Below the pieces are notes generated by a model that was given only the letters and a program-made list of their open reading frames with translations, searched no databases and was not told the DNA's origin. Positions 1-49,984 of a DNA stretch of 64,000 bases are shown here, piece by piece. The position numbers were made by a program, and so were the translations under genes. The DNA comes from a virus. The number at the start of each line of letters is the position of its first letter. Within the stretch, counting starts at the first letter, position 1. The stretch covers positions 1 through 64,000 of IMG/VR virus record IMGVR_UViG_3300010354_005141, one strand, 5' to 3'.

Positions 1-1635
1 CATGTTACCAACAACAACAACGCCAGTGTTGATACCAATACCCATGCCAAAGGGTGGAACACCTTCTTCTCTAATACTTGCATTAAACGCATCTAAACTC
101 CCTAACATTTCTAATCCGGCTTTAACAGCATCTTTACAATGCTTAGTTTCATCTAAAGGTGCGTTCCAGAAAGCCATCTGTGCGTCACCGATGTATTTGT
201 CTAATGTTCCGCCTGTTTCTAAAATAGTTCTAGTCATGGCAGTCATGTAGCGATTCATGATACTGGTTAGACCTTGAACATTTTTACCGTAATGCTCACT
301 GATACTAGTAAAACCTCGCACGTCGGTAAACATGATACTTAGTTCTTTTTCTTCGCCTCCTAGTTTTAATAGGCTAGGATCTTTGATTAACTTGGCGACT
401 AGGTCAGGGCTGAGATAGCTTTGAAATTGTTTTCTTATCTGTTGCTTTTGTAAGAACTCTGAGACGAATTTGACCATGTAGGCGTGCAGAGCGACCAATC
501 CAACGCCAACTGCAAAGGCAGTTGAGTCGTATAATACCAAAAAGCCACTGTAAGCATACATACTAGCCCAGATACCGCCGCCAATAACAGCAACGGTCGC
601 AGCAATACCAACATAAGTCCACCTCATTAAAAATATTAAAATTAAACTTGCTACTAATATACCAAATAGTTCATAGTAATCAGCATCTCCTGGTCTTTGA
701 ATATTTGTATTAGTCATCATTGTGCCCATAACTGCTGCTTGTAGATAATGCGGCCATACTTCACCGCTAGCAGTTGCTACAGGATTAGCTAGTCCAGCTG
801 CACTAAGACCAACTATGACTATGCCATTATTAAATGTTTTAGGTAAATTAGCTAAACTATGTTGCTCAGGTTTTCCTGCCCAATCAATCCATATGCGACT
901 TAGATTGTCAGTATCAATGCGACCCACTTTAGGTATGCGAACAGCTTCTACACCAACATCACCTATTTTAACTTGTATCTTATCTTGAGCAGCAACTCTA
1001 ATAGTCTCTAATGATATAGCAGGATGTATAACTATCTGTTGTTGATCTAAAGGAAGTAAATGATTATCTGGAGCAGCAATTAACAATGGCATACGACGAA
1101 CAACACCATCTATTTCTGGAAACGTATTAACTATACCTACCCCAGCTGCTAATGATGATAAACTATCGATAGAATTAATCAATCCAGGATACTGTACAAC
1201 TTTACCTGAAGGATCTTGCCCTACTATCTGCACAGGGCTTCCATTACCTGTATTTTTACCACGTGTATGCCCTAATGCAGGTAAAACGACAGGATATTCT
1301 TTTAAAGTTTGTGCTAACACAGTATCTTTGCCAAAACGATCTTTTTCTGGCATTAAGACGTTGAATACAACTAACCCTGCTTCACGTTTATACAAATCTC
1401 GAATAATTTCAGCATACAAATCTCTAGGAAACGGCCACTGCCCGTATTTGTCTAAGGTAGCTTCATCTATATTAACTATATGTATAGGAACTTCTTTAGC
1501 AGGTTGACTAACAATCAACTGATCAAAATAACGCAATCTAACTGATTCTACAAAACTAGGGTCCCAAAATCTAATTAGTAATACAACAACAAGTGTAACT
1601 AAAGCGGTCCACGGATTAAGCAAGATTTTTTTCAT
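1..1635 (-). CDS. CHASE2-domain class III adenylate cyclase (3' end beyond window)
   Basis: The frame is open from an ATG at 1635 to the window edge (545 codons, no stop), so the C-terminus is missing. Seen: an N-terminal hydrophobic segment (about residues 8-22), a periplasmic CHASE2-type sensor region (about 25-310), three closely spaced membrane segments, then a class III nucleotide cyclase domain with a FTDVRGFT metal-binding motif and a LDKYIGDA motif whose Lys is typical of ATP rather than GTP specificity. The family makes cAMP in response to an extracytoplasmic signal. In bacteria CHASE2 cyclases often neighbour FecR-domain proteins, as here (FecR gene 2.1 kb away). It is divergent from speD. 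A complete sensor cyclase is unusual in a phage genome. Inference: it could raise cAMP in the infected cell or signal the state of the envelope. Confidence 0.9.
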   Translation of the reverse strand, partial: MKKILLNPWTALVTLVVVLLIRFWDPSFVESVRLRYFDQLIVSQPAKEVPIHIVNIDEATLDKYGQWPFPRDLYAEIIRDLYKREAGLVVFNVLMPEKDRFGKDTVLAQTLKEYPVVLPALGHTRGKNTGNGSPVQIVGQDPSGKVVQYPGLINSIDSLSSLAAGVGIVNTFPEIDGVVRRMPLLIAAPDNHLLPLDQQQIVIHPAISLETIRVAAQDKIQVKIGDVGVEAVRIPKVGRIDTDNLSRIWIDWAGKPEQHSLANLPKTFNNGIVIVGLSAAGLANPVATASGEVWPHYLQAAVMGTMMTNTNIQRPGDADYYELFGILVASLILIFLMRWTYVGIAATVAVIGGGIWASMYAYSGFLVLYDSTAFAVGVGLVALHAYMVKFVSEFLQKQQIRKQFQSYLSPDLVAKLIKDPSLLKLGGEEKELSIMFTDVRGFTSISEHYGKNVQGLTSIMNRYMTAMTRTILETGGTLDKYIGDAQMAFWNAPLDETKHCKDAVKAGLEMLGSLDAFNASIREEGVPPFGMGIGINTGVVVVGNM

Positions 1636-1679
1636 AGAACTATCCTATCAATATTAAAGCCTCTATTGTTATTTAACCT

Positions 1680-1685
1680 TAAATA
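1680..1685 (+). promoter_or_regulatory. TAAATA late-type promoter motif upstream of speD
   Basis: CCTTAAATAG lies 23 bases before the speD ATG, in the divergent intergenic region, followed by a good Shine-Dalgarno (AAGGAG). It resembles the T4 late -10 element (TATAAATA). The assignment is by motif only. Confidence 0.4.
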
Positions 1686-1708
1686 GTGCTGTAATACAAG
1701 GAGATACT

Positions 1709-2065
1709 ATGTTTTGGGGTTATCATTTAATGTTAGATTGCAGCGGTTGCGACATTGATAGTATTTCTAATAAAGAAGTTATCTATAAGTTTATAAAAGA
1801 TCTTGTAGAAAAAATTGATATGACTGCACACGGAGAACCAATTATAGAGCATTTGCTACCCGGTGATCCTAAACAAGGTTATAGCCTTATGCAACTAATT
1901 ACTACCAGTAATATATGTGCTCATTTTATGGAATTAGACGGTACTGCTTATTTTGATATTTTTAGTTGCAAAACGTTTGATGTTGAAGCAGCTAAAGCAG
2001 TTGTTGATCAGTATTTTAACCCTAAAAAAACTAGAGTGAATTTTATCACCAGACACGCAGATTAA
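1709..2065 (+). CDS. speD: S-adenosylmethionine decarboxylase-like protein (SpeD family)
   Basis: 118 aa, the length of a bacterial class 1b AdoMet decarboxylase proenzyme. Family members self-cleave to create a pyruvoyl group and make decarboxylated AdoMet for spermidine synthesis. Seen: an N-terminal GYHLMLD-GCD block, PGD-x2-QG, a putative cleavage Ser67, His72 five residues later, and Cys87 in DIFSC, matching the Ser63/His68/Cys83 pattern of the family. The usual Glu-Ser cleavage pair and the His after it are replaced (TTSN in place of ESH), so substrate or processing may differ. Some SpeD homologues have become ornithine or arginine decarboxylases. SD AAGGAG precedes the ATG. The stop abuts the convergent gene at 2066. 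speD-like genes are known in cyanophages. Confidence 0.82.
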   Translation: MFWGYHLMLDCSGCDIDSISNKEVIYKFIKDLVEKIDMTAHGEPIIEHLLPGDPKQGYSLMQLITTSNICAHFMELDGTAYFDIFSCKTFDVEAAKAVVDQYFNPKKTRVNFITRHAD

Positions 2066-3787
2066 TTATTGACCTTGTGTTACAGTTATTGCTGAACAAG
2101 TCATTGTAGCACAATTGTGTGTAATAGAATAAAACTGTTGTGTAGATCCAGTTTGTGTAGCATTTATTGTAGTAGTTCCGCCACTAAGATCAATCTTAGC
2201 CATGTGTCCTGCGTTTCCTGATTGTGTAAGATTTACTGTTTTATTACTTCCACTAACAGTAACTTCTGCATAATGATTACCGTTATTGTTTTGATTTATT
2301 GTCAGTGAATTATTATTATTATTTACTGTAGCTAGTATACCCTTATTTCCGCCAGTACTAGATTGTGTAAGATTTACAGTATTATAACTTCCAACAACAT
2401 CTAACTCAATATAATTCCTTGCACCAATAGATGTACTTGTTTGTGTTGTATTAGTAATATTGTTATTTCCAGTAACATTAATTTCACTATAACTATGTCT
2501 AGTTCCGCTTTGAGAAACTGTAGCTGAGTTATTGTTTCCAATTTGTGTTATGATTACATTAGTATCTTGATTTGGCCTTGAGGCAAAATTAGATACCCTA
2601 GTGTTAAAAGAAGCATTAGCATTAAAAGGTGTAGCTACAGCACCGCAGCACAAATTACTAGGATTAGCAACTGAACCTGAACCAGCATCAGTTGAAGTAG
2701 TAGTATTATTAGAATCATAATAAAAAGTAATTTCTGCTATTTGCATACTGTCATACGGTAATGCACATTGACCAGTACAACCTGCAGGAGCATTACCTGA
2801 TTTAGTAGTGGGAAAGAAAATATAGTAATATACATAAGCAGTTGAGTTATTGACTGCGATCATTGGACTAGTCCAAAATCTTGTGTCACTTAAATTTAAA
2901 GAACCTTCACTGACTAAAGTCCAAGTAGTTCCATTATTGCTTGCATAGAGTTTGTAACTTGTTGGATCTCTTGGAGAAAAGTCGTTAGCAGTAGTTAAAG
3001 TAAAACCAGTAACCACACGTCCTTGATTTAATTTAACAGTAACACCTGCATTAGCTTTATCGAAATTAAGATACTTGGTATTTGGATTATTATCAAACGC
3101 TTTGGCAGCATCTTCGCCAGGCGGACTGTTATTACTAGTAGGATAATGATTAGTTATCCAAACATTATTTGATATACCTTGATTGTAAATTGCTGTTGGT
3201 GCAGGACTTGGTGTGGCATTACTGGGAGTCTGTGTTGCAGTCTGCCCTGCGGTTAACGGTACTGTAGAATAAGATGCATTAGCATATGTATCAGCCTGTT
3301 GTATAGTTGGGTTAAGTGTACCAGTCCAAGATACGCCACTTGTATTACTCATGCCTGAACTACCACTGAATAATTGCCCTGTGTTATTGTCATTGCCCAC
3401 AAAGAAAAAATAATCAGGGCCCATGTTGACAATTTTACCTGTGCCAATAGTGCCAGCTAATGTTCCGTTGCTGTTATAGACTTTACCTTCATAAGGATAA
3501 CTAGCGTTGCCTGTTAAACTAAACTGAACATATTGTCCTGCTTGCCATGCCCACTGTCCGTTAGTCCAAGGTATTTTGTACATCGTACCAGGTTGCTTAC
3601 TGTAAATTTGACAGGTAGTTGTATTAAGACAGGCATTGACATTCCACTGACTGTCGGCAATTTGACTTTGACCAAATTTGATATCGGTAAGTGCTGCATG
3701 GCCTACTTTGCTAACCAGCAGCATAAACACAGCTACTATTAACCATGTCCAGTATTTGTATCTTGCTCCGTATTTTATCTGTTCCAT
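2066..3787 (-). CDS. Secreted discoidin-like protein with C-terminal curlin repeats
   Basis: 573 aa. An N-terminal signal or anchor segment (about residues 14-32, ending in GHAA) implies export. The middle (about 220-360) resembles an F5/8 type C (discoidin) carbohydrate-binding domain: an AAKAFDNN-type start, a SYKLYASNNGTTW stretch and a closing beta strand. The C-terminal 170 residues hold repeated curlin-type units of the Q-x-G-x2-N-x5-Q class (for example ITQIGNNNSATVSQSG). Such repeats stack into amyloid beta-helices in CsgA/CsgB. It is the last gene of the csgF-csgG operon and overlaps fecR by 13 bases. Inference: a minor, adhesive or tip subunit of a curli-like fibre. The function of the first 200 residues is unknown. 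Confidence 0.72.
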   Translation of the reverse strand: MEQIKYGARYKYWTWLIVAVFMLLVSKVGHAALTDIKFGQSQIADSQWNVNACLNTTTCQIYSKQPGTMYKIPWTNGQWAWQAGQYVQFSLTGNASYPYEGKVYNSNGTLAGTIGTGKIVNMGPDYFFFVGNDNNTGQLFSGSSGMSNTSGVSWTGTLNPTIQQADTYANASYSTVPLTAGQTATQTPSNATPSPAPTAIYNQGISNNVWITNHYPTSNNSPPGEDAAKAFDNNPNTKYLNFDKANAGVTVKLNQGRVVTGFTLTTANDFSPRDPTSYKLYASNNGTTWTLVSEGSLNLSDTRFWTSPMIAVNNSTAYVYYYIFFPTTKSGNAPAGCTGQCALPYDSMQIAEITFYYDSNNTTTSTDAGSGSVANPSNLCCGAVATPFNANASFNTRVSNFASRPNQDTNVIITQIGNNNSATVSQSGTRHSYSEINVTGNNNITNTTQTSTSIGARNYIELDVVGSYNTVNLTQSSTGGNKGILATVNNNNNSLTINQNNNGNHYAEVTVSGSNKTVNLTQSGNAGHMAKIDLSGGTTTINATQTGSTQQFYSITHNCATMTCSAITVTQGQ

Positions 3788-4869
3788 TGTCTCACCGTTA
3801 CAACATTACCGTTAGCGCCAGTTCCAACTTGTCGTTGACTGACATCTACATTGTTCACTGAAATATTATAATTTGTAACATCTGTCGTTTCTGATGTTCT
3901 TATATGAATAACATTGCCCCTCAAAGGATCGTCATGTTGATACCAATTGTAGCCTTTTTCATTTCCACAACTGGTAAAAGGCCAGCAAGGATTAGTAGCT
4001 AGTTGAGCAGCAGTAGCAGTTCTTGTTTCTCCTAATTCACCGCGTAGTGCTTTGTGAATAGTTTCGTCATCAGTAGCAGCTTTTTTCTTAGCGTCTTCTT
4101 TTTGTCCATCTTTGGCTACACGTTGTTCATCAGCATTGGCTTTACTCTTATCTTTCTCTGCTTCTTTCTTTTCTTGTCTTTCTGCTTTAGCAATGGCCAC
4201 TGCTTGTGGTTTGTTTAAACTACCTTCGCCGCTGGCATTTATAATTTGAGGATCTACCCTAACTGGCGGTAATGGAGATTCTTGACTTGTAGATACGTGA
4301 GTAGCAAAGAATGGGCTTTCCATACTAACTTTACCGGCATCTGTAATAACGTCAATAGCTCCGCAAGTACAATTACCAGGAAGTTCTACTCTAGTGGCTT
4401 GTTTATCATCTTTGCATGTAGGCAGTAGAACTACAGTGCTTTCTCCCAATTCACTTACAGTCATAGCAAAATCTGTACCTCTAACTGCTATAGCTGCTGT
4501 AGGAGTTTGAATATTAACATTTTTACTGTCTTGTTTGGCTATTCCGCCAGATGCCATCCGAACTGTTCCTAAGGTAACACGCATAGCACTTTTACTAGAC
4601 CCCTTAGGATCATAGACAAAGTCATCTATAACTAATTTACTGTTTTCTGAAATTTTTGCTGTAGAATTATCAGCAAACGTAATAGTTAATTTAGTGTTAG
4701 ATCCTACACTGACTGTATCGTTTGCTTCAATAACAAAGTCTTTGGTTGCTTTAAGATTTTTAGATCCTCTTTTAACTTCAACGGCTGTGCCCTGGAGCTC
4801 AGAAATTTTTCCAATGTTTGCCTGAGCTCCAGTTACTATCAATAAAGATAACAGCCATGCATATTTCAC
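3775..4869 (-). CDS. FecR-domain secreted protein
   Basis: 364 aa with a signal peptide (first about 17 residues, ending AQA). Residues about 18-150 form a FecR domain: IGKISELQG start, DNSTAKISENSKLVIDDF, LGTVRMASGG and the IQTPTAAIAVRGTDF signature. After it come CTCG and C-x4-C cysteines and a long Lys/Glu/Ala-rich, probably coiled or disordered, stretch (about 225-285). The last about 35 residues (INVSVNN/VTNYNISVNNVD) look like a short curlin-type end. In bacteria FecR domains are periplasmic sensors or structural proteins, often paired with CHASE2 cyclases and surface fibres. It sits one base from the curlin gene. No FecI sigma factor or TonB receptor is nearby, so classical iron signalling is unlikely. 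Confidence 0.85.
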   Translation of the reverse strand: MKYAWLLSLLIVTGAQANIGKISELQGTAVEVKRGSKNLKATKDFVIEANDTVSVGSNTKLTITFADNSTAKISENSKLVIDDFVYDPKGSSKSAMRVTLGTVRMASGGIAKQDSKNVNIQTPTAAIAVRGTDFAMTVSELGESTVVLLPTCKDDKQATRVELPGNCTCGAIDVITDAGKVSMESPFFATHVSTSQESPLPPVRVDPQIINASGEGSLNKPQAVAIAKAERQEKKEAEKDKSKANADEQRVAKDGQKEDAKKKAATDDETIHKALRGELGETRTATAAQLATNPCWPFTSCGNEKGYNWYQHDDPLRGNVIHIRTSETTDVTNYNISVNNVDVSQRQVGTGANGNVVTVRQWNR

Positions 4870-4870
4870 A

Positions 4871-5551
4871 TCAATTTCCAGTAGTTACAGTTACTGAATT
4901 TGAATTGCCTGTAGTTGTAATTGAAACATTTGTATTAATTGATCCTGTTTGTGTAACTGAGTGAGTATTACTAGTTCCAGTAACTGCTGCTACTAGATGA
5001 TGTCCTGTGCCACCGCTGGCGCCCGACATTACACTAGTAAATGTGTTGCTATCACCTGCAATTGTAATACTACTAGTACTATTACTTGTTGTGATAGTCT
5101 GTGTAACTGCATTGCTATCACCGGTAATACTTAGAGTATTTGTAATTGCAGAACCTTTAATGGTGCTAGTCACAGTGTTTAAATCGCCAAGTATTGTCAT
5201 TGTACTAGTTACATTAGTACAGGCGGTTGTACCGTCGCCACAAGTAAAAGTAATCTGATTAGTATCACCGGTTACAGTTTTAGAAATCGTATTACCACTA
5301 CCTACCACTATATAATCTACAATATTACTATCACCAGTTTGAGTAACTGATAAAGTATTATTTGATCCTGTAATTTTACTTTGATTATTAAGTCCAGTAT
5401 TACCTACTCGGTTAGTGCTACCAACCTGAGTTATGGTAACTGTATTGCTACTACCTGCCTGCTCAATATAGACTTTGTTATCAGCCCACGCTCCTGAACC
5501 GGCAAATAGAGCAGCAATAATCATTGCCATTCTATAACTATTCTTAATCAT
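4871..5551 (-). CDS. Curlin-like amyloid fibre subunit (CsgA/CsgB type)
   Basis: 226 aa with a signal peptide (about residues 1-23, ending AWA). The mature part is almost entirely Asn/Thr/Ser/Gly-rich repeats of the form SNTVTITQVGSTN / NTLSVTQTGDSN / NAVTQTITTSN, i.e. about ten curlin units of roughly 20 residues with spaced Gln/Asn. One unit carries two cysteines (C-x6-C). Curlin units form stacked beta-arcs exported through CsgG. The SD for its ATG is GGAG. It lies between the 51-aa gene and fecR in the same operon as csgF/csgG, which is the strongest support that it is cargo of that channel. Repeats are more diverged than in enterobacterial CsgA, so a secreted beta-solenoid with another role is possible. 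Confidence 0.78.
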   Translation of the reverse strand: MIKNSYRMAMIIAALFAGSGAWADNKVYIEQAGSSNTVTITQVGSTNRVGNTGLNNQSKITGSNNTLSVTQTGDSNIVDYIVVGSGNTISKTVTGDTNQITFTCGDGTTACTNVTSTMTILGDLNTVTSTIKGSAITNTLSITGDSNAVTQTITTSNSTSSITIAGDSNTFTSVMSGASGGTGHHLVAAVTGTSNTHSVTQTGSINTNVSITTTGNSNSVTVTTGN

Positions 5552-5571
5552 TTTTCGCTCCTTGAACTTTT

Positions 5572-5727
5572 TTAGTTCTTGTTGTTTTTTAAGTTCTTAT
5601 CTTCTTTCAGTTGAAGATTTACTTCTTCCTTTATTTCTTTTAAGATCTTATCAGTCATTGGACTTAGCCTATAGGGCTGTGTTTTTTGAGGTTCTCTCGC
5701 ATGTGGTTTTCTTTTAAACCAACTCAT
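5572..5727 (-). CDS. Small basic protein between csgG and the curlin gene
   Basis: 51 aa, starting MSWFKRKPHAREPQ, with many Lys/Arg and Glu. The ATG overlaps the csgG stop (ATGA), so it is translationally coupled. No signal peptide or membrane segment is visible, so it should stay in the cytoplasm. No family is recognised with certainty. The start resembles small proteins seen in other aquatic phages. Its place in the operon suggests it is made with the secretion channel. Confidence 0.6.
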   Translation of the reverse strand: MSWFKRKPHAREPQKTQPYRLSPMTDKILKEIKEEVNLQLKEDKNLKNNKN

Positions 5728-6530
5728 TTCTTCTCCTCAGACTTGAATGCCCAATGTCCTTTTCGCTCTCCCTCTTTTATCATTTCTATTACAGCAGCAT
5801 GAATTGCCAACTGTACTGCTCGGTTCATAGATTCATTAGTTGCTGAACCAGTTTCTAGCTCAAGACTTCTAGTTCCTGCATCCATGAATCTTAAAACGCC
5901 TGCTTTGTCCATAAAACTGTAAACAGTTTTACTGACATTAACACTGGCCAATACTTCACCAGTGGACACACTGACAGCTCTTAAACTTATAGTTACTTCA
6001 TCTTGACGGTATTCTGTAGATGCTCCAATTCCTAACAATCTTGCACCACTTCCTCCGCTAAGTGTATTACTGTCATAACCAATAATGCCGCCTTCTAGCA
6101 GCATACCGGCAAACAACATAGGAGGTAAAGGCTGAGCTTTATCTCCCTGATATAGTTCACGCATTTGACGTATCAATTGACGTTCTTTAATCAAATTATC
6201 TAAGCCGCCACGTTCAAGGACTTTGAACCATTGGCCGCTGCCTACTTCTTGTAAACTCTTAACAAGATAAGCATCAGCACCCTGTGTCACAGCTGAACTT
6301 AGGCTAGCTATAACTTGACTGGCTTTACGTTGTCCAGTCATATCTCTAAAATTATATACTGCTACTGTTATAGCGCCCGCTGCTGGAGCTCGTAATTTAT
6401 TTTCGTCTTTTAGTGTTGGTTTAGTAACAACAGGATCATCAAATTCGCGAATGGCGTTACTCAATGTTCCACAACCTGTTAATAGCACAGCAAGTGCTAT
6501 TGGTGCTATTTTAATTAAGGTGCTAGCCAT
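5724..6530 (-). CDS. csgG: CsgG, outer-membrane curli secretion channel
   Basis: 268 aa, the usual CsgG length. A lipoprotein signal peptide ends in the lipobox LTGC (Cys20). Conserved CsgG blocks follow: AVYNFRDMTGQRK, FKVLERGGLDNLIKERQLIRQ, LLEGGIIGYDSNTLSGG-GARLLGIG, YRQDEVTISLRAVSVSTGEVL and a C-terminal helix (MNRAVQLAIHAAVIEMI). The family forms nonameric lipidated beta-barrels that export curlins. It is coupled to csgF upstream (16-base overlap) and to the 51-aa gene downstream. It appears intact. Inference: it exports the curlin-like neighbours, or acts as a regulated outer-membrane pore during infection or lysis. Confidence 0.95.
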   Translation of the reverse strand: MASTLIKIAPIALAVLLTGCGTLSNAIREFDDPVVTKPTLKDENKLRAPAAGAITVAVYNFRDMTGQRKASQVIASLSSAVTQGADAYLVKSLQEVGSGQWFKVLERGGLDNLIKERQLIRQMRELYQGDKAQPLPPMLFAGMLLEGGIIGYDSNTLSGGSGARLLGIGASTEYRQDEVTISLRAVSVSTGEVLASVNVSKTVYSFMDKAGVLRFMDAGTRSLELETGSATNESMNRAVQLAIHAAVIEMIKEGERKGHWAFKSEEKK

Positions 6531-6973
6531 CCGAAGTCTCCTATTGGTACTGTTAGTGTTGTAAGATTTCCATCTGCATCTCTAATGGTTATTTCAATCA
6601 TATTACCATTTTTAGTGTAAGTGATTGTGCCGCCGTTAAATGCAAAAGTTCCTGTGGCCTGAGCGCCTTGGCCTTCGAATAGCTTTTCGGTAATTTGTCT
6701 AGCTAACTCATTATAGACTCTTGACTCAAGATTGGCTACGAATTTAGCCATTGTAGTATTTTTAGCATCTTGCTCTGCTTTTAAAGTTTCGGCTTTCTTT
6801 TCAGCAGCAAGAGCTAGCTTACGACTAAGTTCTTGTGAGTAAATTGTTAGTGTATGCGAGCTATAACCTATACCAGAAAAACTAGGGCTATTAAATTGAT
6901 GCACTAGTTCGGCAGATTGTGCTGTAGAAATAGCCGAAAGCAATACAGCTATTGTTAATAATTTCCTATTCAT
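6515..6973 (-). CDS. csgF: CsgF, curli assembly factor
   Basis: 152 aa with a signal peptide (cleavage after AQSA, about residue 20). The mature N-terminus carries the CsgF core (ELVHQFNSPSFSG, the segment that plugs into the CsgG barrel), then a coiled helix (about 50-95) and a short beta-rich tail. In bacteria CsgF couples the CsgG pore to the CsgB nucleator. First gene of the operon, with SD GGGAG and a TAAATA motif 25 bases upstream. No csgE or csgC homologue is seen nearby. Confidence 0.92.
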   Translation of the reverse strand: MNRKLLTIAVLLSAISTAQSAELVHQFNSPSFSGIGYSSHTLTIYSQELSRKLALAAEKKAETLKAEQDAKNTTMAKFVANLESRVYNELARQITEKLFEGQGAQATGTFAFNGGTITYTKNGNMIEITIRDADGNLTTLTVPIGDFGWLAP

Positions 6974-7435: not shown

Positions 7436-8872
7436 TTAAGAATATTTCCAACGGGTATTGTTGTAAATTTGAATTGCTTCTGCGCTAGACAGTATTCTTC
7501 TGTAGAAAAAACATTCTCCAATATCTACTGCTGTAAAATTAGTGCCATCATAGGCAAGGTATGCGAATCCTGCTGGAGATGTAACCGGAGTTGAGAATCC
7601 GTTAGGAGATCCTGCTACGCCATTAATATACTGTATTACATTGCCACCACTGGAAACAGTAACAGTAACGTGATACCATGTGTTAGCAGGTATAACTCCG
7701 CCTGCTCCGCCATTTGAACTTTGACTGCCTAACGTGAATGCCCATTGATTCGAAGCGTTAGTTCTTATGGCCCAATCACCGGTATTTCCGGTTGTTGTTT
7801 TTCTGCCAAGTATCCATCTTTCTGCGTTGGGCAGTGTAGGAAATCTAAACCAAACACCTACACTAAAATTTCCGCCGGCTATGATGCCTAATTTATCTCC
7901 AAAAAATCCTTGCTGACTCCCGTTAAAGGAAATTCCAGGTCCGACTATATTAGCTCCACTGGCAAAATTGGCATTGTTACCATTACCGCTAAGGTCAAAA
8001 AAACTAGTGTTACCTGCAATTAAACTACTAGGATTAGAAGCGTCTAGGTGCATTTCTAGAGGATATGGTATACTATCACCGTAGTTGACTATTCTTCCAA
8101 CATTTGTACTTGGAAACTGTCTAGTAGTTCCTGGCCAAATAATTCTTACGGCACCTGTACCTCCATTAGACACAACACCGCCACTGCTACCACCGCCATA
8201 TTTTCCTCCAGGAAGACTCGGGCTGCCAAAACCACCACTGCCGCCACCTCCTCGATATAATGTTACCCCTGCAATTCCACCAGTACCGTTGCCGCCAAGG
8301 CCATAGACTCCAACACCTCCACCCCCACCAGCAGGCCCTCCACTGACGCCTGCGCCGCCACCACCTCCTCCGCCTGCGCCGGCTGTCCCGTTACCGCCTG
8401 GTGCTCCTCCAGTGCCGCCGGTTCCACTATATCCGCCAGCACCTCCGCCGCCACTACTATTGCTGCCGCTGCCACCGTTTCCGCCAGCACCACCTGTACC
8501 AGTTACAACCGATCCTCCGGCACCACCGGTATTGCCAGTAGCGGCCAGGCCACCACCTGCAAAGACAATTATTGTGTTCGGAGGATTAGCTAGTAAAACA
8601 AAGCTGTCTGCACCACTAGTTGCTACATCTATATTATAAACATCTCCGGGAGTAACTGAAAAATTATTAGCATATGCTAATGCGCCTCCGCCTCCGCCAC
8701 CGTTGATGACGGCACTGGTAGTGCTGCCGCCACCTCCGACAGCAACTGCACTAATCGATGTTACTCCTGGAGGAACTGTCCAAGAATATGTTCCGGGTGT
8801 ATCAAATAATACTTCCCCGTGCGGACAGCTAGTGATAGTTACATTATCAAATTGAACGCCATCTATCTTCAT
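7436..8872 (-). CDS. Glycine-rich tail fibre/adhesin with C-terminal LamG-like domain
   Basis: 478 aa. Residues about 20-60 form a beta start (PGTYSWTVPPGVTSISAVAVGGGG), followed by a long poly-glycine region (about 60-245) of the kind found in T4-type receptor-recognising adhesins and fibre tips. The last about 210 residues look like a LamG/concanavalin-type lectin domain (LEMHLDASNPSSL-DLSGNGNNA, FSVGVWFR, ANTWYHVTVTV). Its ATG overlaps the stop of the 527-aa gene. Likely role: receptor binding on the virion. The repeats make this locus prone to recombination. Confidence 0.8.
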   Translation of the reverse strand: MKIDGVQFDNVTITSCPHGEVLFDTPGTYSWTVPPGVTSISAVAVGGGGSTTSAVINGGGGGGALAYANNFSVTPGDVYNIDVATSGADSFVLLANPPNTIIVFAGGGLAATGNTGGAGGSVVTGTGGAGGNGGSGSNSSGGGGAGGYSGTGGTGGAPGGNGTAGAGGGGGGGAGVSGGPAGGGGGVGVYGLGGNGTGGIAGVTLYRGGGGSGGFGSPSLPGGKYGGGSSGGVVSNGGTGAVRIIWPGTTRQFPSTNVGRIVNYGDSIPYPLEMHLDASNPSSLIAGNTSFFDLSGNGNNANFASGANIVGPGISFNGSQQGFFGDKLGIIAGGNFSVGVWFRFPTLPNAERWILGRKTTTGNTGDWAIRTNASNQWAFTLGSQSSNGGAGGVIPANTWYHVTVTVSSGGNVIQYINGVAGSPNGFSTPVTSPAGFAYLAYDGTNFTAVDIGECFFYRRILSSAEAIQIYNNTRWKYS

Positions 8873-10455: not shown

Positions 10456-11154
10456 CTAATATTTAGTTATTTCGGGAAAGAGGCAATCTTGTATGAATAC
10501 CTTAACATCTTCCTCGTTTAACCCTAGACTAGTCATAACTCGTGGAGTGTGTGGATTTTGTTTTTGATTCTGTGCGTAATAATTCTGTGCATCAACTACA
10601 CTGCTAATTCTTTCAGCAGTTTTATTTGTAGATCCAACTTCATCTAAATAAAAATTTATGCCTTTTTTAGCTATAGATAAAATTTGTGCTAGTTCTTCTT
10701 CGTCTTGCACATTGCCAGCAGCTATCATAAACGGACTAAAAATACGTTCAGCCCAGTCTGGAAGTTTTCTAACTTTATTCCAGTCAAGATTTCTTGCTTG
10801 ATCTGCAAACCAATCTATCATAGGATGTTCGCTATCTACTGTAGGACTAAAATCATAGAAACATCCGGTAATTTTGTTCTTACCTGCTATAACATCAAAT
10901 CCAAATATAGGAGCAGGATTATGAGTATGTGGGAAAACACAGCAATGCATCATCCACAAGCCTCTAGTTTCTCTTGCATCGACTACATCGATATGTGCTC
11001 TACGATAAATGCTACTAGCCCATACTTTGTTGACCCAACCTGGCTGATTAAAACGATCCATTCCGGGTTCAAATATAATACTACCTGTCGCATAAAATTT
11101 ACTTTCAAAATATCTTTCTATATCGATTAGAGTGCTCCAAACATTACTCTCCAT
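10456..11154 (-). CDS. pcyX: Ferredoxin-dependent bilin reductase, PcyX-like
   Basis: 232 aa, the size of the HY2/PcyA/PebS family (Fe_bilin_red). These enzymes reduce biliverdin IXa with electrons from ferredoxin. Seen: IYRRAHIDVVDARETRG, the family core MMHCCVFPHTHNPAPIFGFD, KNKITGCFYDFSPT whose Asp101 aligns with the catalytic Asp105 of PcyA, and the C-terminal YYAQNQKQN-x2-TPRV-SLG plus CLFPE motif. The position of PcyA Glu76 (needed for phycocyanobilin formation) is not Glu, which fits a phycoerythrobilin-type product as reported for phage PcyX. It overlaps the heme oxygenase gene by 11 bases, so the two steps are co-translated. A cytosolic enzyme that needs host or phage ferredoxin. Confidence 0.88.
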   Translation of the reverse strand: MESNVWSTLIDIERYFESKFYATGSIIFEPGMDRFNQPGWVNKVWASSIYRRAHIDVVDARETRGLWMMHCCVFPHTHNPAPIFGFDVIAGKNKITGCFYDFSPTVDSEHPMIDWFADQARNLDWNKVRKLPDWAERIFSPFMIAAGNVQDEEELAQILSIAKKGINFYLDEVGSTNKTAERISSVVDAQNYYAQNQKQNPHTPRVMTSLGLNEEDVKVFIQDCLFPEITKY

Positions 11155-12549: not shown

Positions 12550-14436
12550 TCAAACCTCTTTGAAATCAGCATTAACAACTGTTTCGCCGTTTTCAGATTG
12601 TTTAGCTTGTTTAGCTGTTTCTGCTGCCTGTTTCTTGGTCATAATAGCAGATGCGCTTTCGAACAACTTAGAGACTGCTTCTTGAATCTTTTCAATTTCT
12701 TCTCCTTTAACTGATTCGTCAAGGTTACTTCTTGCAGTTTCGTATGCTGTTTTTTCTTCTTCAGTTAATTGATCTTTAACTTCATCAAAATCTTTGTTTA
12801 GCGAATGCCTTGTGCTTTCTGCTTGATTACGTGCTTCAATAAGATCTTTAGCTTTCTTATCAGCTTCTGCATTTTCTTCAGCTTCTTTAACCATACGCTG
12901 TATTTCGGCTTCAGTTAAACCACTGTCACTCTTAATTGTGATATTGTTTTCTTTGCCAGTGTTCTTATCTTTAGCACTGATCTTCATGATACCGTTGGCA
13001 TCGATGTCAAAAGTAACTTCAATCTGCGGCATACCACGTGGGGCAGGAGCAATACCGTCTAGGTTAAATTCGCCAAGTGCTTTATTGTACTTGAACAAGT
13101 CTCGCTCGCCCTGTGCTACTTTAATTGTAACTGCTGGCTGGTTGTCTTCTGCTGTTGAGAATGTTTGGCTAGCCTTAGTAGGAATAGTTGTATTCTTAGC
13201 AATCAGTTTGGTCATAATACCGCCAACTGTTTCAATACCTAGGCTCAACGGAGTAACGTCTAGCAATAGAACGTCAGTCTTGTCGCCTGCTAGAACAGCG
13301 CCTTGAATGGCTGCACCGGCGGCAACTGCCTCGTCTGGGTTGACATCCTTGCGTGGAGTCTTGCCAAACAACTTTTCAACTGCTTCTTGTACCTTAGGCA
13401 TACGTGTTTGTCCACCAACGAGAATAACTTCGTCGATGTCAGCGGCTGTAACACCTGCGTCTTTCATAGCGATCTTGCATGGCTCGATACTGCGTTCAAT
13501 TAGTTGTTCTACCATTGCTTCAAACTTAGCACGAGTAATAGTTACATTCATGTGTTTAGGACCACTTGCATCAGCTGTAATGTATGGCAAGTTAACGCTT
13601 GTGCTTTGGGCGCTAGATAATTCGATCTTTGCTTTTTCAGCGCTTTCTTTTAGGCGCTGTAATGCCAGCATATCTTTTTTAAGATCAACGCCGTTGTCTT
13701 TCTTGAACTCATCAACAAGATAATCCATAATAGCTTGGTCAAAATCTTCACCACCTAAGAATGTATCTCCGTTAGTAGAAAGAACTTCAATTTGTTTATC
13801 GCCATCGATATTAGCAATTTCAATAATTGAAATATCAAATGTACCACCACCTAAGTCGTAAACTGCAACTTTACGATCTTTCTTATCTGCTTTATCAACT
13901 CCATAGGCTAGAGCAGCCGCAGTTGGCTCGTTGATAATGCGTAGTACTTCAAGTCCGGCAATCTTACCAGCATCTTTAGTTGCTTGACGCTGACTGTCAT
14001 TAAAATAAGCTGGAACTGTAATAACTGCTTTAGTAACTTCTTGACCAAGATAATCCTCAGCAGTCTTTTTCATCTTGCGAAGAACTTCTGCACTGATCTG
14101 CGGAGGTGCTAGTTTTTGTCCGTTGGCTTCAACCCAAGCATCACCGTTGTCTGCTTTGACAATTTTGTAAGGCATTAGGTCAATATCTTTTTGCACAGCT
14201 TGTTCTTCGAACTTACGTCCAATCAAACGTTTAGCTGCATAGATTGTGTTCTTGGGGTTTGTTACTGCTTGTCGCTTTGCTGTTGCACCTACTAGAATTT
14301 CTTTATCTGTATATGCAATAATTGACGGTGTTGTTCTTGCACCTTCGCTGTTTTCAATTACTTTAGCAATTCCGTTTTCTAAAATTGCTACACAGCTATT
14401 TGTCGTACCGAGATCGATACCAATAATTTTACTCAT
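12550..14436 (-). CDS. dnaK: DnaK, Hsp70 chaperone
   Basis: 628 aa, full length. Seen: [14 protein letters not shown], the [15 protein letters not shown] and [12 protein letters not shown] motifs, [28 protein letters not shown], the linker [19 protein letters not shown], and the lid domain to a C-terminal DFKEV. All ATPase signatures are intact. No dnaJ, grpE or hscB is in the window, so host co-chaperones would be needed. As phage IscU (19965-20357) keeps an LPPVK chaperone-binding motif, this Hsp70 might also serve cluster transfer (inference). SD AAGGAG. A TAAATA-type motif lies about 80 bases upstream. Confidence 0.97.
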
Positions 14437-39701: not shown

Positions 39702-40337
39702 TTATTCGTAAGTTACATTATTACTATCACCTAACGCCCATTTAGGGTTTGTTTCTACTACATACTTCTTAGTGCATACTTTAAAATCGGGAAACAGCAT
39801 TTCTTTTGGATTACTTGCTGCATCTAAAAATATACATCTGTTGTTAGGTTGAGCTGCATATTGACCATTATCTAACTCAAGAAAGTTAAAACTTTTATGG
39901 TCTTCAGGCCATTCGCTGTAACTAGTATCAATAATATTAAGATTGGGACTGGCATTATCTACAGTAAACATATAGTTACCTTGATACAGTTGTTTATCTT
40001 TAGCATAAAACTTGCAGCTAAGATTACGCAAAAAAGCTTTTTGAATAATTGCTATGTCGTAACTAAAACAATCCCAAATTTGTAGTGTATCGAGTGATAG
40101 GAACTTGTCTGGCTCTAAGTCAGTGTTCCTACTCACATAAGCATGTAAAGGCAACTTGTCATATAACGCACCGTATCTAGGAAGATAAGCTTCTATACGA
40201 AACGCTTGGCTACGTAGACTTTTGATGCTGACCCATATACACGGTTCATATTCTCCATGACCTTGTTCAAAATCATACAAAAACTCTTTGCGTACAAAGC
40301 AATGCACTGGCGGTAGGTTAGCTACCAAAAAACTCAT
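39702..40337 (-). CDS. Conserved phage hypothetical protein
   Basis: 211 aa. HGEYEPCIWVSIKSLRSQAFR, YLPRYGALYDKLPLHAY and LDTLQIWDCFSYDIAI form blocks I associate with a conserved gene of T4-like aquatic phages. No signal peptide. Function unknown. Confidence 0.65.
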   Translation of the reverse strand: MSFLVANLPPVHCFVRKEFLYDFEQGHGEYEPCIWVSIKSLRSQAFRIEAYLPRYGALYDKLPLHAYVSRNTDLEPDKFLSLDTLQIWDCFSYDIAIIQKAFLRNLSCKFYAKDKQLYQGNYMFTVDNASPNLNIIDTSYSEWPEDHKSFNFLELDNGQYAAQPNNRCIFLDAASNPKEMLFPDFKVCTKKYVVETNPKWALGDSNNVTYE

Positions 40338-46054: not shown

Positions 46055-46873
46055 TTATTGGGTTAGAAACTCAAATACATTTAACCACTGGCGTTTGCCT
46101 ATTGTAGCTTTTAAGTTGGTAAGATCAGCTTTAGTTGCATGCCTAAAGCGGGATAATTCTTCTTGAGGAACTGGTACAAACTCTAAAGGGACACCTTCTT
46201 GCTCTGCTATTTCTTCTGCAATATCTAAGAAACTATGTGCAAGTCCGCTACCAACATTCCAAATTCCAGACCCATTAACTTGTTTAATGAAGTCAATGTG
46301 TAAACGGCATACATCACCGACCCAAGTCCAATCACGACGAACGTGCTCTGCATTCTCCCATACTGTTATTTTCCCTTCTTTACGAGCCTGTTGACGCCAT
46401 TTCCAAATAGCATTTGCTCTTGATCCACGCAGGTGCATCCACTTTCCGTAGACATTAAAGTATCTGAATCCTTGCACCATTACGTGCTGTTCTTGTTGAA
46501 AGACCCAACGATCAAATAGATACTTTGACCAAGCATAGGGTGTTTGTGGATGGCATGGTGCATGTTCACTAAAGTCTTTTGTATCTCCGTAAACTGAGCT
46601 AGAACTAGCGTATTGGAAATGTACGCCGTGTTTATTACAGTCTTTGAACAATAGTTGACTAAATTCGTAGTTTTGTTTCATCACTAGGTCAACATCGGTT
46701 TCTCGCATGTCAGCAATAGCACCAAGATGTATGACCCAATCATAGATTGCTATATTGGGGAAATCGTTGGGATCCCATTCCCAACCATCAACTGTCCATC
46801 CTTCTTCTTGATGTAGCCAGGATGTCATATTTCGGCCAATAAATCCTTCATGGCCGGTTACTAGGATTTTCAT
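46055..46873 (-). CDS. NAD-dependent sugar epimerase/dehydratase (HldD-like)
   Basis: 272 aa, SDR extended. ILVTGHEGFIGRN Gly motif, SSSVYGDT, catalytic YAWSK (Tyr-x3-Lys), FRYFNVYGKWMHLRGSRA. The latter resembles ADP-L-glycero-D-manno-heptose epimerase. Acts on nucleotide-activated sugars, perhaps altering host lipopolysaccharide or phage glycans. TTAAATA lies 5 bases before the ATG with no SD. Confidence 0.85.
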   Translation of the reverse strand: MKILVTGHEGFIGRNMTSWLHQEEGWTVDGWEWDPNDFPNIAIYDWVIHLGAIADMRETDVDLVMKQNYEFSQLLFKDCNKHGVHFQYASSSSVYGDTKDFSEHAPCHPQTPYAWSKYLFDRWVFQQEQHVMVQGFRYFNVYGKWMHLRGSRANAIWKWRQQARKEGKITVWENAEHVRRDWTWVGDVCRLHIDFIKQVNGSGIWNVGSGLAHSFLDIAEEIAEQEGVPLEFVPVPQEELSRFRHATKADLTNLKATIGKRQWLNVFEFLTQ

Positions 46874-46881
46874 AGAATTAT

Positions 46882-47367
46882 TTAATCTACAAGACTTACA
46901 CCGTAACTCTTTGCGGTAATAAGCAATGCTTCTTTTAAAGTTTGATCGTCAAAGTTTTGCCTAATAATGTTAGCTACTTTAGGTCTAATAATACAGTTAT
47001 CAAATGTCCAAGTACCACCGTAGCTCTTAGGCAAAATATGATCTGCATTTACAGTATGGAAATAGTCGTACTCATAAACTACTTCAGGATCTAAATCCCT
47101 AAATTGACTAGTAATCTTGTTAGCACCTCGTCCGTAGTCTAGTAAGTGTCCTTCAAACTCTAATGGCATTTTTAATACCCACTGATCAACAGTGCCGCCG
47201 TCCCATTTTTTCATTATAGAGTAGGCATAGTCGTATCTTAGGTCATTAGTTTCGGCAACTTTTCTATAACTAGCTGCACACCAATAGGTCTTGCGATCAA
47301 AAACAGCGCCAGTCTGTAACTGACGCTGTTTGATAAGACTATTGATAAGTTCTGTATGTTTAAGCAT
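46882..47367 (-). CDS. HNH-like nuclease without Cys zinc pairs
   Basis: 161 aa from ATG 47367. HTVNADHILPKSYGGTWTFDNC is an HNH core (His, Asn/His, Gly-Gly). No Cys-x2-Cys. It overlaps the ParB-like gene by 8 bases, so the two are co-translated. Possibly a two-part nuclease of the ParB/DUF262 + HNH kind. Confidence 0.7.
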   Translation of the reverse strand: MLKHTELINSLIKQRQLQTGAVFDRKTYWCAASYRKVAETNDLRYDYAYSIMKKWDGGTVDQWVLKMPLEFEGHLLDYGRGANKITSQFRDLDPEVVYEYDYFHTVNADHILPKSYGGTWTFDNCIIRPKVANIIRQNFDDQTLKEALLITAKSYGVSLVD

Positions 47368-48733
47368 TTTTAACAACAGGAATTGTCAAAGGGAATACCA
47401 TCTTAGTTTCAACAGTTGTAGGCTGAACTAACTTCTTGGCATACTCTTTAGCTAAACGTTGTGACAAAACAGAATAGAATCCGGATGCAATCCACATATG
47501 TTTAGCAATTCGGGTTGAATCAACAGAATAATACTTAACATTCTTTTCTTTGTCTTCTTTGGTCTTATAGGGAAACTGCTCTTGCATTTCGTCTTGAATC
47601 TGACGCCATGCTGGTGTTGAACCTTTACCGCTAGTCTTGTTAGGCCATTGCTCACGCAAAGAATTCATTAGTTTTACTTGGAACAAGTCTTTGTCAAACC
47701 CTTTTTCGAAAATCCATTCTTTGTTATAAAGAATAGTTTCAAGAAGACCAATTAGGTCAGCAGTTTCTAAACGCTTCAAAGGCCAAATGTATTCGTACCA
47801 ATCAAGTGCTAGACTTAAAATTTCATCAGTATAGTCTGCTGTTTCAAAAATAGCTTTCAGCTGGCTGATGTTAGAACAGGAACCTTTAAGGTTCTTTTCT
47901 TCTTTGTTTTCGTCGTTGACTAATCTAAAGTTTCTCTTTAGGCTTAGTTCATTAAAGATTTTAAAATTAATAAACTCGTCATCACTTTTGCTAAGATTCA
48001 TTTGTTTACAAACTTCAGCATAACTGATTTCAGTAATATCAATTTTCTTTTTAATACAATAATCTTCAAGACTCTTCTTAATAACCAGGGCGTCACTAAG
48101 AGTAAGTTCAACTTCTGTTGCACGAAGTTTACCTTGGTTCTCGCGTTTGAACATACGAAGATCATCAATATCATCAGTACTAGGAAGAACTTCGTAGGCA
48201 AATTCAGTACGTCCTACAATGCTACCAGCAATGCTTCGTTGTTGCCCCTCGTTAACAAAAATACGATCGTTTGTAGGATCGCGGCGAGCGTTGCCGCAGG
48301 TAAGGCCATCTGGGTTCCACCGACGTAACATTTGCAGAATGTGACGCGGTTTAGGATTACGTTGGCCGCCTTGACCATCTTCACCGTAATTGAGCCAAAC
48401 ATCACGAACAGACCATTTTTGAACTCCCTCAAGCCGAGACTTGCGTTCTTCAAAAGGTAGCAAGATTCCGTCAAGTACACCTGTTGATTTATAGTGCGTA
48501 AGTACTTCTTCTACGACTCGTTGCAGGCTTTCGTTAGCTTTGTTGATAGGAAGTTCAGCAAGGACTTTGTGTTTGTCCATATGAGCTTCAAGTTCTGCTT
48601 CGCTAAATGAAGTAAGACGACGTTTAATAGTAGACTTGTCTGTAGGAATAACTTTAGTTACGTCTGACAGCCAAGTACCGAAACTACGAAAATGATGTTC
48701 TTTTTCAACGGGATTAAAAATTGTAGGTGCCAT
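47360..48733 (-). CDS. ParB/DUF262-like protein
   Basis: 457 aa. RIFVNEGQQRSIAGSIVGR resembles the DGQQR loop of ParB/Srx or DUF262-type domains (as in GmrS and DndB). The C-terminal half is helical and charged. Neighbour of an HNH-like gene. No second known domain. May be the regulatory or nucleotide-hydrolysing half of a nuclease pair. Confidence 0.6.
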   Translation of the reverse strand: MAPTIFNPVEKEHHFRSFGTWLSDVTKVIPTDKSTIKRRLTSFSEAELEAHMDKHKVLAELPINKANESLQRVVEEVLTHYKSTGVLDGILLPFEERKSRLEGVQKWSVRDVWLNYGEDGQGGQRNPKPRHILQMLRRWNPDGLTCGNARRDPTNDRIFVNEGQQRSIAGSIVGRTEFAYEVLPSTDDIDDLRMFKRENQGKLRATEVELTLSDALVIKKSLEDYCIKKKIDITEISYAEVCKQMNLSKSDDEFINFKIFNELSLKRNFRLVNDENKEEKNLKGSCSNISQLKAIFETADYTDEILSLALDWYEYIWPLKRLETADLIGLLETILYNKEWIFEKGFDKDLFQVKLMNSLREQWPNKTSGKGSTPAWRQIQDEMQEQFPYKTKEDKEKNVKYYSVDSTRIAKHMWIASGFYSVLSQRLAKEYAKKLVQPTTVETKMVFPLTIPVVKNA

Positions 48734-48788
48734 TTGGAGCCTTTAAAAAGTTAAGATAAGGTAAGTGTATTGCCATTATCAATTTTTG

Positions 48789-49838
48789 TCAAGCGCCAAA
48801 ATCAAATAGTATTTCAAATTGATTGTCTTCTTGCTCCATAGCACCGTAATCGGTTGCCAGATGTACTTCTCTAGGAACAAACAGTCTATCCATATATTTG
48901 GCTATTTGTCTATGTTGCATACCAATGTCTTTGCCAAAAAATAAACCTGATTGATCTTTGTTAGCTGGTTTTCGGACAGCACTAACACATACATAATCTC
49001 TTTGAGCAAAGAAATCATAGAGTCTTTGGGGATCATAACCGTATTGATTACATTGTTTTGGAACAATTTCTACCTGTACACTAGGACGCCATTTGTCTAT
49101 CGTCTGTTGTGCTCCATGTATAACAAATAACTCAGATCCTTCAACGTCAATTTTGATTGCATCAACATCTTCAAATCCAAAACTATCTATAGTTCTACAA
49201 GGTACATCAACCACATACTGTGACTTCTTAACTTGTTTTTGATTGTAGATAGCAAAGTTGTGACCTCCATGGTCTGGATGATCCTGTATGCCAATCGTGC
49301 CTGTGTTTCTATCAGTAATAGCAACTTCGTGTACTGTAATATTTCCTACCACATTCATAGATTGTGGCTTGCCCTTCCATTTAAACCAACCTGCTTCAGC
49401 TGTTGGGTCTCTGTGTATGCTGCCTTCTACGTCTGTACCTTGCCAATAGATTCCCAATAGCTGGCTGCGTCTAGCTATTTCGATATTAGCTTTGAGCATA
49501 GTCAGCGTAGTAGGTGTAGGTTCAAATGACTCTACATGTTGTGCCCACTCACTATAGGCAATAGTGTTGTTACCTACATTGGCACCCACATCAATAATAC
49601 GGCGGGCGTTAGGATAGATAGTCCTAATTAACCTTGCATTATTGCCTTGATAGTAGACGTTGTTTCCGCTAAATCTAGGGCCTTGCAAATTGTCTATGCT
49701 TAGTAGCCAATAGCATCTCCCAAACTTGTTGATAACTAAACGGAATTGTTGATTTTGGTAAAGACCACTAGGTTCGTCAAAACCAAAAAGGTCTTTAAAT
49801 TCTTGAGATGAAATGGTTGCTGTTAATAACTGCGGCAT
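48789..49838 (-). CDS. FkbM-type methyltransferase
   Basis: 349 aa from ATG 49838 (MPQLLTAT), with SD AGAAGGAG. SAM-binding IIDVGANVGNNTI, then IKIDVEGSELFVIHG and a VQVEIVP end, as in FkbM methyltransferases. Acts on polysaccharide or natural-product hydroxyls. With the epimerase, suggests surface-glycan modification. Confidence 0.88.
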   Translation of the reverse strand: MPQLLTATISSQEFKDLFGFDEPSGLYQNQQFRLVINKFGRCYWLLSIDNLQGPRFSGNNVYYQGNNARLIRTIYPNARRIIDVGANVGNNTIAYSEWAQHVESFEPTPTTLTMLKANIEIARRSQLLGIYWQGTDVEGSIHRDPTAEAGWFKWKGKPQSMNVVGNITVHEVAITDRNTGTIGIQDHPDHGGHNFAIYNQKQVKKSQYVVDVPCRTIDSFGFEDVDAIKIDVEGSELFVIHGAQQTIDKWRPSVQVEIVPKQCNQYGYDPQRLYDFFAQRDYVCVSAVRKPANKDQSGLFFGKDIGMQHRQIAKYMDRLFVPREVHLATDYGAMEQEDNQFEILFDFGA

Positions 49839-49984
49839 ATTAGTTCTCCTTCTAATCAATGTTCGCTGTAAACATTATATATCTGCTGTAAAAAAATATA
49901 GAAAATTAAGTTCAAACAGGTTGCAAAGTTATTCAATCGACATTATTATTACTGTGTAAATCTATATTTTCTCTTAGGACTCAA

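Follow-up and report, generated by a model that had tools for sequence, protein, structure and literature searches.

A divergent pelagiphage-type curli operon in viral record IMGVR_UViG_3300010354_005141 and its possible role in displaying adhesive fibres on infected cells

Bases 1–64,000 of the 65,142-base linear viral record IMGVR_UViG_3300010354_005141 (hereafter the window) carry at one end a curli-type module encoding CsgF, CsgG, two curlin-repeat proteins, a FecR-domain protein and a CHASE2-nucleotide cyclase. A CsgG homologue, a CsgF homologue and a curlin-repeat subunit, by which type VIII secretion is recognized, are all present. It is somewhat probable, in our judgement, that this operon provides an infected Gram-negative cell with surface fibres bearing adhesive domains, monitored by FecR and the cyclase through cyclic AMP (cAMP); the gene anatomy was observed directly and the function is read from it. 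A more specific proposal is offered tentatively, with more doubt than belief: that the fibre is an evolvable adhesin on the host surface, its binding domains being swapped on a conserved stem and channel in the manner of tail-fibre tips, while a tailed FecR protein and the CHASE2-cyclase report assembly as cAMP.

Organization of the curli module

The genes of the module were scored against the curated Pfam cut-offs, with all named genes scoring above them, while signal peptides and the lipobox were judged by eye. The features are as follows.

6515–6973, minus strand: csgF, 152 amino acids (Pfam CsgF, 4.2e-18, nearly whole profile; phrog_35372, 2e-37)
5724–6530, minus strand: csgG, outer-membrane channel, 268 amino acids (Pfam CsgG, 2.1e-52; lipobox LTGC)
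4871–5551, minus strand: curlin-repeat protein 1, 226 amino acids, signal-peptide-like start (Pfam Curlin_rpt, 2.9e-8)
3775–4869, minus strand: FecR-domain protein, 364 amino acids, signal-peptide-like start (Pfam FecR, 6.8e-12, residues 51–147)
3787–3972, minus strand: beta-rich, curlin-like C-terminal tail of the FecR protein, residues 300–361 (conserved in 30 relatives)
2066–3787, minus strand: second curlin protein with discoidin domain, 573 amino acids (Pfam, profile, AlphaFold2 model, BLAST)
3293–3703, minus strand: N1 domain of the second curlin, residues 29–165 (BLAST between second curlin proteins; present in some relatives)
2693–3172, minus strand: discoidin/CBM32-like domain of the second curlin, residues 206–365 (Pfam F5_F8_type_C, 9.7e-11)
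2075–2563, minus strand: curlin stem of the second curlin, residues 409–571, seven strand-turn-strand rungs (AlphaFold2, profile, periodicity)
1709–2065, plus strand: S-adenosylmethionine decarboxylase gene (Pfam AdoMet_dc, 2.7e-20)
1–1635, minus strand: CHASE2 and class III nucleotide cyclase, 545 amino acids, 3' end cut (Pfam CHASE2, 1e-37; Guanylate_cyc, 8e-11; phrog_35576, 1.7e-192)

Neighbours among the five genes from csgF to the second curlin either overlap, by 16 and 13 bases, or are spaced by 172 and 1 bases, as expected for a single transcription unit. The cyclase is set apart from them by the plus-strand S-adenosylmethionine decarboxylase gene, which probably lies outside the curli module. 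An initial annotation made from the sequence alone had placed the five genes within positions 1–6973 together with a CHASE2-cyclase, as a phage-borne channel with its likely cargo and sensor partners, and this was borne out by Pfam, profile and model evidence, all five being found on the minus strand. Two of its details needed correction: the cyclase, described as adjoining the operon, is present but is not contiguous with it and is cut off where the record begins, and the term 'near-complete' applies to the channel and fibre proteins but not to CsgE, which was not found.

Curlin proteins and exchange of the binding domain

The 226-residue protein contains three curlin-type motifs (a maximum of one in 2000 shuffles), which together with its Pfam match supports its earlier designation as a curlin; the protein alone gave no match in the PDB. 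In the 573-residue protein, Pfam by itself gives the curlin repeats a weak score (E 0.002, below cut-off). A profile of the second curlin family matched a solved curlin-repeat protein (8c50, E 3e-21) and CsgA (8enq, E 0.006), the stem shows a periodicity of 23 residues, and the AlphaFold2 model contains seven strand-turn-strand rungs at residues 409–571, with a pLDDT mostly of 78–91 in this block and lower at the extreme end. The identification of the stem as a curlin is therefore based on the profile match, the period and the model, and not on the stricter curlin motif, which was not enriched in the stem (its count being reached by 40 of 2000 shuffles). Lack of a curlin fold had been named beforehand as grounds for abandoning the initial annotation, and for the 573-residue protein the fold is apparent in both model and profile. 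The modelled discoidin domain matched galactose-binding CBM32 modules and galactose oxidase.

Comparison of the second curlin across relatives by BLAST showed a conserved C-terminal curlin part with varying N-terminal domains. The N1 plus discoidin arrangement of the window recurs in loci L009 and L014, while in L005 and L006 N1 is followed by a different domain, which is itself joined to a discoidin domain in L013. Another domain is combined with discoidin in L011 and L012, a PA14-like domain stands alone in pelagiphage HTVC008M and L018 and follows a relative of N1 in L028, L031 and L033, and a further N-terminal type is found in L047, L060, L065 and L074. Among 35 representatives, Pfam detected discoidin in nine, PA14 in two and GLEYA in one. 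The exchange takes place on a conserved stem among relatives with CsgG proteins 82–85% identical; between the window and L005 the identity is 85% for CsgG, 74% for FecR and 61% for the curlin stem, yet the middle domain has been replaced. This pattern looks like selection on the binding target of the fibre, and since it is exactly this domain of the second curlin that varies, binding something outside the cell would appear to be the point. Such swapping predicts that selection changes the ligand of the second curlin and not the channel.

CsgG and CsgF channel

The CsgG of the window aligned with the Escherichia coli CsgG structures (2e-48, residues 13–265), with differing residues in the constriction loop, while a search of CsgF alone against the PDB gave nothing meaningful. 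It should also be noted that the phage CsgG proteins of L008, L013, L014 and L015 carry a C-terminal bacterial SH3 domain following a Pro/Lys-rich linker, a possible tether to the cell wall. SH3_3 was detected in 5 of the 19 CsgG members scanned and is lacking from that of the window.

FecR protein and CHASE2-cyclase

In the FecR protein the FecR domain follows the N-terminal signal-peptide-like segment, with no other Pfam domain above cut-off, and its model matched both the cell-surface signalling domain of PupR and a putative anti-sigma factor (E 3e-5 to 2e-4). Of the parts of a FecR sigma regulator, the periplasmic FecR domain is present, and the cytoplasmic anti-sigma part and inner-membrane anchor are lacking. 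The end of the protein is conserved in 30 relatives and finishes in a curlin-like half repeat, with six strands predicted at modest confidence. A search with a profile of this tail recovered two curlin proteins (E 5e-5, against 0.098 for the top shuffled hit) and did not match curli-free bacterial FecR proteins. The protein is probably exported, and because of this and its curlin-like tail it more likely serves as a sensor or a component of the fibre than as an iron regulator.

A FecR gene was present in all 55 viral csgG loci with sufficient downstream sequence, and a cyclase in 47 of 52. Of 73 curli-free bacterial loci, 19 have, close to FecR, a cyclase that is matched by the profile of the phage CHASE2-cyclases, and owing to this co-occurrence FecR and the CHASE2-cyclase look like a portable sensor pair. 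In the cyclase tree the curli-linked cyclases formed one clade (100/100), with 17 curli-free bacterial ones outside it.

The metal-binding Asp and substrate Lys motifs are present in the window cyclase, with the part holding the Asn/Arg transition-state residues lying beyond the end of the record; the cyclases of the relatives L005 and L006 retain VNLASR. In many other curli-linked cyclases (L003, L009, L011–L014, L030, L059, L065, L073 and L077) this motif was found to be VSTAAR, the catalytic Asn being replaced by Ser, and these phage enzymes may differ in activity or specificity.

Possible function and alternatives

In curli systems CsgG is the outer-membrane channel, CsgF at its mouth aids nucleation, and the curlin subunits exit unfolded and then stack. 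By analogy, the curlins of the window would be carried into the periplasm by Sec and passed out by CsgG/CsgF, after which the short curlin would polymerise and the long curlin co-assemble through its curlin stem, leaving the discoidin domain displayed outside. The fibre could then bind polysaccharide on kin cells or particles and so keep cells or lysis products close to new hosts; alternatively, it could mask the cell from rival phages. The periplasmic FecR protein would signal to the CHASE2 domain that export or assembly is taking place, and that domain would set cAMP; a sensor role for this pair is consistent with the fit of the FecR model to periplasmic signalling domains and with the curli-free co-occurrence, and cAMP may plausibly provide a layer of control. 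Among the three ideas offered in the initial annotation, surface fibres are the best fit to the gene anatomy.

Several observations weigh against this reading. The second curlin lacks an N-terminal domain in the Methylophilales phage Melnitz and others, and some relatives have no second curlin. No match to CsgE (PF10627) was found in the window record or in 18 relatives, several of them fragments. The CsgE periplasmic gate is an accessory component, and many lineages are without it. The kinship of the FecR tail with curlins is suggestive but statistically weak, with the tail profile scoring the Caulobacteraceae FecR proteins discussed below insignificantly (E 0.3–0.6). Cultures of Melnitz showed no clumping (PMC9004378). 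All steps past gene identity, secretion and polymerisation included, are inferred by analogy.

Of the alternatives, the first is that the fibres form a coat around the cell that shuts out rival phages, with adhesion being incidental. This masking or superinfection exclusion, discussed in PMC9599517, would employ the same fibre anatomy, and rapid domain exchange also fits an arms race. Sequence does not distinguish adhesion from masking; carbohydrate-binding domains would be superfluous for a passive coat, and masking is considered unlikely as the main purpose. A little less likely again is the hypothesis of PMC9004378, in which lysis is timed at the outer membrane by CsgG/CsgF, working in the manner of a pinholin or of a gated, secretin-like pore, and the other genes are regulators or remnants. 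The constriction residues unlike those of E. coli and the missing CsgE gate would suit such a pore, which was argued from synteny and a supposed lack of fibre genes, but curlin genes occur in nearly all complete modules, the Melnitz GenBank record itself annotating two, and a pore has no need of carbohydrate-binding domains that can be exchanged on a curlin stem. The lysis pore had also been among the initial ideas, and was set aside as the conserved curlin genes are not explained by it.

It is thought very improbable that the curlin/discoidin protein is a virion fibre and that CsgG/CsgF export something else from the host cell. The domain shuffling does resemble tail-fibre evolution, and just upstream of the module (7436–8872, minus strand) lies a gene whose glycine-rich product, possibly a virion fibre, contains a lectin domain of the laminin-G/concanavalin type, but the signal-peptide-like starts and the linkage to an outer-membrane secretion channel argue otherwise. 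Marginally less credible is an uptake channel, suggested in PMC7029224 and PMC9599517, with CsgG admitting cofactors, iron compounds or larger nutrients that phage replication could use and FecR, as its name implies, being an iron-linked regulator; a sigma-regulator part is missing from the FecR protein, which combines an export-type start with a curlin-like tail, and the curlin genes would be left unexplained.

Should infected cells display adhesive fibres, as is favoured here, phages would alter the adhesion of their hosts to particles and to one another. This would bear on why pelagic phages retain an operon reportedly missing from isolated hosts.

Phage origin and genomic context

Joining of bacterial to phage DNA by misassembly, raised in the initial annotation as a possible flaw, was considered, the point in its favour being that one end of the record falls inside the cyclase. 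The idea is scarcely tenable and, to the extent that sequence permits, was rejected: tail, virion, ribonucleotide reductase, exonuclease and endolysin families of phages fill the window, the isolates HTVC008M and Melnitz carry the module, and the module recurs with a phage DnaK gene in independent viral records. In the window this full-length DnaK/Hsp70 gene lies at 12550–14436 on the minus strand (Pfam HSP70, 1e-259). Of 18 related viral records that bear the module, 7 also have a DnaK gene, and it lies to the same side of the curli genes; in the window and its closest relatives csgF is located approximately 4–6 kb downstream of this DnaK gene on the same strand. Relatives of CsgG were confirmed in 340 viral-contig stretches.

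Most of the records compared are fragments. T4 gp23/gp20 families were detected in 2 of 23 module-bearing records, most of them partial and that of the window not among the two, and neither family was detected in large relatives of 138, 164 and 229 kb. The large terminase (phrog_2) was found in 1 of 17 records, and inspection by eye of the large ORFs of the 138-kb relative gave no obvious lineage.

Two Caulobacteraceae metagenome-assembled genomes (MAGs; L211 and L212), out of 299 genomes of the family, were found to carry a chromosomal csgF-csgG-curlin-curlin-FecR-cyclase operon amid bacterial genes. Their cyclases group with the HTVC008M branch (95/83); with midpoint rooting, the tree is compatible both with descent of these bacteria from the donor and with their having acquired the module from phages. 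Contigs L209 (142 kb) and L210 (121 kb), binned as a Sphingobacteriales MAG, have phage-type genes next to the phage curli module and seem to be phage genomes that were binned wrongly. Together with L086–L088 and L091 (Rhodobacteraceae, Flavobacteriaceae and Pirellulales bins) they were not counted as bacterial, being phage-like or having cyclases that group with those of phages.

Elsewhere in the window, a ferredoxin-dependent bilin reductase is encoded at 10456–11154 on the minus strand (Pfam, 1e-20), with its nearest phage match in Pelagibacter phage Mosig (54%), and positions 39702–40337 matched a ferredoxin-annotated phage family. A nucleotide-sugar epimerase-like gene and an FkbM methyltransferase gene (46055–49859, minus strand) suggest modification of surface glycans. 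An Rfam scan of the window gave no match, and thus no glutamine riboswitch of the kind reported for Melnitz in this fragment; a promoter and terminator scan gave no clear surplus over shuffles, and a tRNA search found none.

Comparison with known systems

The csgF and csgG genes and an operon were described in pelagimyophages (PMC7029224), Melnitz was described in PMC9004378, and CsgF, CsgG, CsgA/B, FecR and cyclase were reported in 2022 as widespread and expressed in podo- and myo-pelagiphages (PMC9599517). The window matches the pelagiphage order csgF-csgG-curlin-FecR-(curlin)-cyclase. The initial claim that channel, cargo and FecR/CHASE2 together exceed what is known is largely not supported, the same set being published (PMC9599517) and visible in the HTVC008M and Melnitz GenBank records; by its sequence the module is a divergent member of the known pelagiphage curli modules and is mostly not novel. 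Neither the second-curlin domain exchange, nor a probably exported FecR protein with a curlin-like tail, nor FecR with CHASE2-cyclase in curli-free bacterial loci, nor the Caulobacteraceae chromosomal operon, nor the C-terminal SH3 domain on some CsgG proteins, nor the predominant absence of T4 capsid and portal genes from module-bearing records was found in PMC7029224, PMC9004378 or PMC9599517. The words 'discoidin', 'PA14' and 'lectin' are absent from the main text of PMC7029224 and PMC9599517, and PMC9004378 was not searched for PA14 or lectin.

The closest parallel in gene content is HTVC008M (KC465899), with an identical gene set and order and a CsgG 48% identical to that of the window. 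Its second curlin has a PA14-like domain where that of the window has discoidin, and in the window the cyclase is split off by the opposite-strand decarboxylase gene and T4 gp23/gp20 were not detected in the partial record. Melnitz (MZ577097) likewise shares the gene order, with a CsgG 48% identical, but its second curlin has no added N-terminal domain and its cyclase has Ser for the catalytic Asn; its curlin genes call into question the reading of Melnitz-type phages as being without fibre genes (PMC9004378). The Caulobacteraceae operon is composed of the same gene families as that of the phages, with its cyclase in the same 100/100 clade, and differs in its bacterial location and in having both curlins before FecR; it questions the view that FecR and cyclase sit outside bacterial curli operons (PMC9599517). 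The curli-free bacterial loci resemble the module in having a FecR-domain protein near a phage-profile cyclase, but have no csgF/csgG nearby and a FecR without the curlin-like tail. With the curli system of E. coli the window has in common the CsgG and CsgF homologues and the curlin-repeat proteins; it differs in that CsgE was not found (CsgD and CsgC were not searched for), in the addition of FecR and a cyclase, and in the adhesive domain carried on a curlin.

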